Assembly: GCA_021791715.1 (NCBI GenBank)
Contig: JAJYWB010000027.1
Location: 1-64,000 of the forward strand
Source of the DNA: Planctomycetota bacterium
GTDB taxonomy: Bacteria > Planctomycetota > Planctomycetia > Isosphaerales > Isosphaeraceae
Reading direction: 5' to 3'
Length of the DNA stretch: 64,000 nucleotides
The position numbers and the translations under genes are program-made. Within the stretch, counting starts at the first letter, position 1, and every line of letters starts with the position of its first letter. The notes under the pieces were generated by a model, which ran no database searches, was not told where the DNA came from, and saw nothing but the letters and a program-made list of their open reading frames with translations. Of this stretch, positions 43,739-44,642 are shown piece after piece.

Positions 43739-43968
43739 TGAATTTATCTAATTTAATCGAAAAACCTTAATTTATCAATATACAATTGAATCATCGATCG
43801 CCGCGGCGACCAGGCGGCCGACTTGATCGCTTTTGACGATCAAACGCAATCCGATTTTGACGATTCTCCGAGAGAGAAACAAGTCGAGGCTCGATTGACG
43901 CGCGGCTCGGTTCCAAGACAAGATAACCATGGAAAAGCGAATCGGCGTTTTCGCCTGGAGAAAGCCTT

Positions 43969-44529
43969 ATGCGAAATCCGTTCGGAAGGGTCGGCTCGGC
44001 GATCTTGGTCTCCGCGTTTGTGGCGGGGGTCGTCGTCGCGGGCGCCGATCTCAAATCGGGATTGCAGGTCGGCGACGCCGCCGGCCCGTTTGAAGTTCGG
44101 GACATCACGGGCCCGAACAAGGGTAAAACCCTCTGTTATCGCTGACAATACGGCGTCGCTCCCGTGGTCTGCGTGTTCGCACGCGAGATCAGCGAGCCCT
44201 TGACCAGTTTGGTCAAGAACATCGATTCCAAGATCGCCGATCATCACGCCTTGAAATGTTTCGTCGTCGTCCTCACCGAAAACGCCGACAAAACCTCCGC
44301 CAAACTCAAACAACTCGCCGAGAAACATGGGATTTCCAACGTCCCATTAACGTTGATCGAGGACGCCGAGGGTCCCTCGGAGTATAAGATCGCCAAAAAC
44401 GCCGACGTCACGGTGATGATGTGGCGTCAGACCAAGGTCAAGGTGAATCACTCCTTCGCCAAAGGAGAGTTGACCGAGGCCAAAGTTAAAGACGTCGTCG
44501 CCGATATCTCAAAGATCCTCGGCGATTGA
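43969..44529 (+). CDS. Secreted thioredoxin-like protein with in-frame TGA in its CxxU motif (selenoprotein candidate)
   Basis: From the ATG at 43969 (GGAG eight bases upstream) a signal peptide (SAILVSAFVAGVVVAGA) leads to GLQVGDAAGPFEVRDITGP and GKTLCYR, then a TGA at 44143-44145, and the same frame continues QYGVAPVVCVFARE through a complete thioredoxin-like fold (GISNVPLTLIEDAEGPSEYKIA) to a TGA at 44527-44529. Reading the first TGA as selenocysteine gives a 186-residue protein with Cys56-Tyr-Arg-Sec59. As I recall, homologous planctomycete proteins have Cys-Tyr-Arg-Cys here, so TGA sits exactly at the second redox residue. Conserved coding on both sides argues against a dead gene. TGA serves as an ordinary stop elsewhere in the window. 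A nonsense mutation from TGC remains the main alternative. Automatic calling would start at the internal GTG at 44164 and lose the active site. Confidence 0.7.
44143..44184 (+). promoter_or_regulatory. Candidate SECIS-like element after the in-frame TGA
   Basis: Bacterial SECIS hairpins start just after the UGA and carry an apical GGUCU-type loop about 20 bases on, as in E. coli fdhF. Here GGTCT lies at 44166-44170 (bases 24-28 from the T of TGA), flanked by CGT and GCG, which can pair weakly. Immediately after it GCGTG-TTCG-CACGC (44171-44184) is a perfect hairpin. The spacing is encouraging, but the apical stem is short, so this is only a candidate. Confidence 0.35.
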
Positions 44530-44610: not shown

Positions 44611-44642
44611 CGACCCGGGCGCGTGTCCCGGGTCGTTTCGTC
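44611..44642 (+). terminator. Terminator after the selenoprotein-candidate gene
   Basis: CGACCCGGG (44611-44619) and its complement CCCGGGTCG (44627-44635) form a perfect 9-bp stem with a seven-base loop, followed by TTTCGTCTT. It lies 82 bases past the final stop of the thioredoxin-like gene, which suggests that the transcript covers the whole frame, including the part after the internal TGA. Confidence 0.75.

Follow-up and report, generated by a model that had tools for sequence, protein, structure and literature searches.

The window, a 64,000-nucleotide stretch of planctomycete DNA, contains a reading frame that opens with ATG at 43969, closes with a TGA stop at 44527-44529 and holds a single internal in-frame TGA, at codon 59 in the context CYR-TGA (Table 1). 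A preliminary description had proposed this TGA as a selenocysteine (Sec) codon, and the frame, its coordinates and the codon are exactly as given there. Coding is conserved on both sides: in tblastn searches all 186 residues align across the TGA with relatives, at identities of up to 60%, and third codon positions hold most of the differences from those relatives both before and after the TGA. Ordinary ORF calling lists the 3′ fragment GTG 44164-44529 alone, the truncation that had been predicted of standard annotation. The ribosome site and signal peptide described earlier are both present by direct reading, the latter composed of MRNPFGR, VGSAILVSAFVAGVVVAG and AGA; residues 9-24 in this region have low pLDDT in the structural model, and the N-termini of relatives are similar. 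The terminator claimed after the full frame is present as a terminator-like hairpin, but its T tail is weak and a single site of this kind does not exceed chance (1 found, 1.9 expected in shuffles). An Rfam scan of the window returned nothing at gathering scores, and a search of a plasmid collection gave no match. Comparison of gene neighbourhoods among relatives revealed no conserved neighbour gene and thus no operon clue to function.

Table 1. Features of the candidate selenoprotein locus and further in-frame TGA genes of the same genome
Feature	Location	Strand	Basis
Shine-Dalgarno-like GGAGAAAG upstream of ATG 43969	43957..43964	+	direct reading
Full-length candidate selenoprotein gene, 186 aa, UGA 59 as Sec	43969..44529	+	whole-length homologues spanning TGA
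Predicted signal peptide (basic n-region, hydrophobic core, AGA cleavage site)	43969..44046	+	direct reading of translation
Candidate redox motif Cys56-Tyr57-Arg58-Sec59 (TGT TAT CGC TGA)	44134..44145	+	
Candidate Sec codon UGA	44143..44145	+	TGA or TGC/TGT at codon 59 of homologues examined
SECIS-like hairpin in coding frame, MFE -19.9 kcal/mol	44158..44199	+	
Ser75-Glu-Pro-Leu78 (SEPL) in canonical CxxC slot of thioredoxins/TlpA	44191..44202	+	element order and TlpA profile alignment
Terminator-like hairpin, weak T tail, after full frame	44611..44635	+	
AhpC/TSA-type protein, in-frame TGA at redox position TGGUTAEC	L163 (G000:C70:17426-17797)		
AhpC/TSA-type protein, in-frame TGA at redox position GDTUPVC	L164 (G000:C46:16022-16420)		
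AhpC/TSA-type protein, in-frame TGA at redox position GLTUARC	L173 (G000:C46:10206-10556)		

Sec use by this organism is not a guess, given the decoding machinery and the other in-frame TGA genes of its genome. The 6.5-Mb draft (145 contigs, 92.5% complete) contains a tRNA-Sec with anticodon TCA (70 bits), selB (340 bits) and selA (504 bits) adjacent on one contig, and a selD (348 bits) that carries its own in-frame TGA in the motif CAGU; every component of the machinery that the preliminary description had presumed is therefore present. Three AhpC/TSA-type genes have an in-frame TGA at the redox position (Table 1). A SelW-like CATU gene (PF10262, E = 5e-18) lies directly upstream of the Sec-containing selD, with the same reading (L056, G000:C129, minus strand), and the selenoproteome of this genome comprises at least six candidate genes. 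Sec decoding genes have been reported for Isosphaera, Gemmata and the Porphyra isolates P1 and P2 (PMC4807772).

Homologues show Sec and Cys interchanging at codon 59. The window protein matched 90 of 119 relatives; in every strong Isosphaeraceae match checked, and in several groups besides, TGA stands in the corresponding column, and the remainder carry TGC or TGT, so that Cys is found exactly where it had been sought. The cultured relative Tautonia sociabilis (L136) shares both the TGA and the hairpin described below, and L018 and L019 exemplify the Cys form. A scan of 84,980 species left 80 loci, all in records labelled planctomycete or unnamed bacterial MAGs, at which codon 59 is TGA (34), TGC (28) or TGT (19) and nothing else; the identical codon is TGA in more than 30 other planctomycete genomes. 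Cys56 and Cys/Sec59 are invariant in 48 homologues. Among the matches listed, SelB and/or tRNA-Sec is present in 34 of 34 genomes with the TGA form, and neither is present in 41 of 56 with only the Cys form, an association (Fisher p = 2.8e-13) for which labels were assigned by hand and in which the genomes are not independent. In a second set, partly overlapping the first, selA occurs in all 21 TGA genomes. A 129-row tree built by a quick method implies at least seven Sec/Cys switches by parsimony, at least two of them forced by strong branches.

Several further arrangements were seen within the family. Sec and Cys copies are adjacent in the same genome (L072 and L074; L098), and in two related genomes a CYRU copy and a CYVU copy, both with Sec, stand in tandem (L020, L024). 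More distant Sec members in other planctomycete families read CLVU, CLIU, CQVU, CFIU, CFVU or CPVU (L065-L069, L071, L073, L076), and the hairpins downstream of these look weaker. Although SelB and/or tRNA-Sec is present in genomes G001, G002, G011, G012, G014, G020, G024, G028 and G033, no member of the family could be detected in them. In a Fuerstiella MAG whose genome has selA and tRNA-Sec, the TGA falls at the first Cys, giving UYRC (L126:3133-3144). We set aside the idea that Sec had moved to the other position of the pair here, as this is a single case among 58 relatives and no strong hairpin follows its TGA; the variant may reflect an error or have arisen recently.

These data bear on two readings in which codon 59 is not Sec. 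The TGA could truly end translation or stem from faulty assembly, leaving a pseudogene or translation of the 3′ part from GTG 44164 only, as the output of ORF callers and the draft state of the genome would allow. This is scarcely credible when the identical codon is TGA in more than 30 independent genomes and otherwise a Cys codon, when both sides are conserved with change mostly at third positions, and when the TGA form coincides without exception with Sec machinery. Readthrough with another amino acid, Cys or Trp, inserted by a suppressor or near-cognate tRNA would by itself also yield the full-length protein. It is nevertheless very improbable: where codon 59 of homologues is not TGA it encodes Cys in every case and Trp in none, the TGA form tracks SelA, SelB and tRNA-Sec, and UGA serves as an ordinary stop in the same gene. 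The Sec reading originally proposed is thus strongly supported by the machinery and the TGA/Cys interchange, and also by the RNA downstream of the codon.

There, a SECIS-like hairpin follows the UGA and exceeds synonymous shuffles in stability, which answers the check for a SECIS element suggested in the preliminary description. Its apical loop, UUCG at 44176-44179, lies 30 nt after the UGA, inside the 16-37 nt of the bacterial SECIS criteria, and its MFE is below their limit of -7.5 kcal/mol. Compared with synonymous shuffles, the candidate gene of the window has z = -3.5, with 0.2% of shuffles as stable. The CYR group comprises 45 Sec genes, and in nearly all of them positions 15-57 after the UGA form one long hairpin with the apical loop at 27-32 nt; the exceptions are few, L064 among them. 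Relative to shuffles that keep the protein and draw on the group's own codons, the Sec genes average -18.95 kcal/mol against -10.25 (mean z -2.9, with 45 of 45 below -1), whereas Cys genes at the same place average -10.29 against -8.45 (z -0.74), a difference in z between Sec and Cys genes with p = 9e-14. At 60-90 bases from the UGA, the Sec genes have no excess stability over shuffles, and Sec sequences that do not belong to the CYR group are less stably folded at the hairpin position. A hand-picked subgroup of 11 sequences contains 4 compensatory pairs, where shuffles give 1.4 and slid controls give 2-3. RNAalifold on all 45 Sec members finds no common pairs because registers shift between sequences; on subgroups it does yield a consensus.

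The loops of the MFE structures are mostly UUCG, CUUCGC or AUCUUCAC. The standard bacterial SECIS model has a G in the first two loop positions (PMC13188914), which the family hairpins usually lack, and the structure would therefore be either a SECIS of unusual form or a hairpin of another class. Since other SECIS classes exist (PMC13188914), a selenoprotein gene need not have the standard loop G. Hairpins whose loops are of the GGU type can be read, by contrast, in the selD and GLTUARC genes of this genome. Whatever its class, the family hairpin would presumably be bound by SelB.

An AlphaFold2 model from 48 sequences (mean pLDDT 90) gave DsbE, deiodinase 2 (DIO2), ResA and peroxiredoxins as best Foldseek matches (E about 1e-7, TM 0.5-0.6); against viral models only distant GPx/Prx were found. 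From residue 66 the elements run strand, helix 76-91, strand, helix, insertion, strand, strand, helix, the order of a thioredoxin fold with a TlpA/Prx-type insertion, which makes the start of helix 76-91 the canonical redox slot. This start of the first core helix has neither CxxC nor UxxC; the slot reads SEPL, with no Cys, and a peroxidatic Cys or Sec after the first core strand is not present in the family protein. CYRU (56-59) instead sits at a short helix before strand 66-71, the first core strand, about 16 residues or more upstream of the slot. When the family profile is aligned with the genome's own TlpA domains (115 columns, at a modest probability of 79-81%), CYRU falls opposite the segment that follows the N-terminal strand and precedes the first core strand. 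ADVT falls opposite the cis-Pro-Thr of TlpA, where the family protein thus seems to lack the cis-Pro. The preliminary description had taken the motif as CxxU replacing the CxxC of a thioredoxin-like protein. A CxxU pair with Cys homologues it is, but the canonical CxxC is not what it replaces. The topology of the model suggests that the Sec centre lies at a displaced site of a thioredoxin-type fold.

A third rival reading is that this is the Sec form of a known family, be it peroxiredoxin-, TlpA- or deiodinase-like or among the GOS/OS groups without a name, that has diverged beyond the reach of the profile libraries. The window protein scores above the cut-off of no Pfam or NCBIfam model, and other members give weak matches only: AhpC-TSA (PF00578) in 7 of 48, at best 0.002, and deiodinase_rel (NF038285) in 12 of 48, at best 1.3e-4. 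The NF038285 score of 12.9 bits is far below the cut-off of 250. A PDB sequence profile search returned noise only. TlpA, ResA and DsbE are exported, as is predicted for the family protein, and share the strand and helix order, but the family has SEPL in their slot, an apparently replaced cis-Pro and CYRU before the first core strand. Peroxiredoxins (AhpC/TSA), including Sec-Prx, belong to the same fold class and are the family of the weak PF00578 matches, yet the separate Prx-like Sec candidates of this same genome hold the residue in its usual place. Iodothyronine deiodinases share the thioredoxin-type fold, with the DIO2 core among the top structural matches; the family scores far below their model, and its Sec is presumably not at the deiodinase Sec position. 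The SelW-like (Rdx) and AhpD-like CxxU selenoproteins also have Sec as the second residue of the motif, but the family protein is predicted to be exported and matches neither PF10262 nor AhpD models, and a true SelW-like gene sits elsewhere in the same genome.

For planctomycete Sec users, passages of PMC4807772 name FdhA and FmdB and not this family. No fitting entry was identified in the prokaryotic selenoprotein table of the 2026 catalogue (PMC13188914), in the part available, and a match would be expected if the family were one of its CxxU thioredoxin-like entries with NCBIfam models. Marine GOS_A, whose alignment is Figure 6E of PMC2398784, is by description listed without a CxxU motif and not among the redox-motif families. 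Planctomycete selenoprotein candidates are listed in the supplement of PMC4807772, and the family may have appeared earlier as an unnamed candidate in the supplements of published surveys. Together with the weak profile matches and the common fold class, this gives membership of a known family some substance; we nevertheless think it unlikely, given that no model scores above its cut-off and that the redox pair has a different place in the fold.

We regard it as highly probable that UGA 59 is read as Sec in a secreted 186-residue protein with a redox role. In the mechanism we propose, the ribosome, with SelB, GTP and Sec-tRNA(UCA), would read UGA 59 as selenocysteine because the downstream hairpin acts as the SECIS. 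Once the protein is exported, Sec59 and Cys56 would act as a CxxU redox pair; in the thioredoxin/ResA/peroxiredoxin-type fold they would occupy the short helix that precedes the first core strand, and the selenol and thiol would cycle through a selenenylsulfide, with a thiol partner re-reducing the oxidised protein. Its most likely role would be the extracytoplasmic reduction of peroxides or of disulfides in proteins; fold and motif suggest this function, and the choice between the two substrate classes is a tentative guess from the fold. In related genomes, the same protein would operate with Cys in place of Sec.

The presence of the machinery, the TGA in relatives and the lack of an identified match to any catalogued family make this look like an undescribed selenoprotein family. 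We consider it probable, with some reserve, that this is the first example of a new selenoprotein family in the Planctomycetota, that its redox centre moved, after loss of the CxxC and the cis-Pro, to the helix ahead of the first core strand, that its SECIS loop departs from the standard bacterial model, and that it switched several times between Sec and Cys. Standard annotation truncates the Sec-using members because none of the profile libraries searched holds the family. If this interpretation is correct, it adds a clade-wide selenoprotein family. The shift of a redox pair to another part of a thioredoxin-type domain would make the relocation of an active site open to test, in proteins that exist naturally with Sec and with Cys, and the conserved hairpins with their unusual loops would provide a set for testing recognition by the SelB of Planctomycetota.
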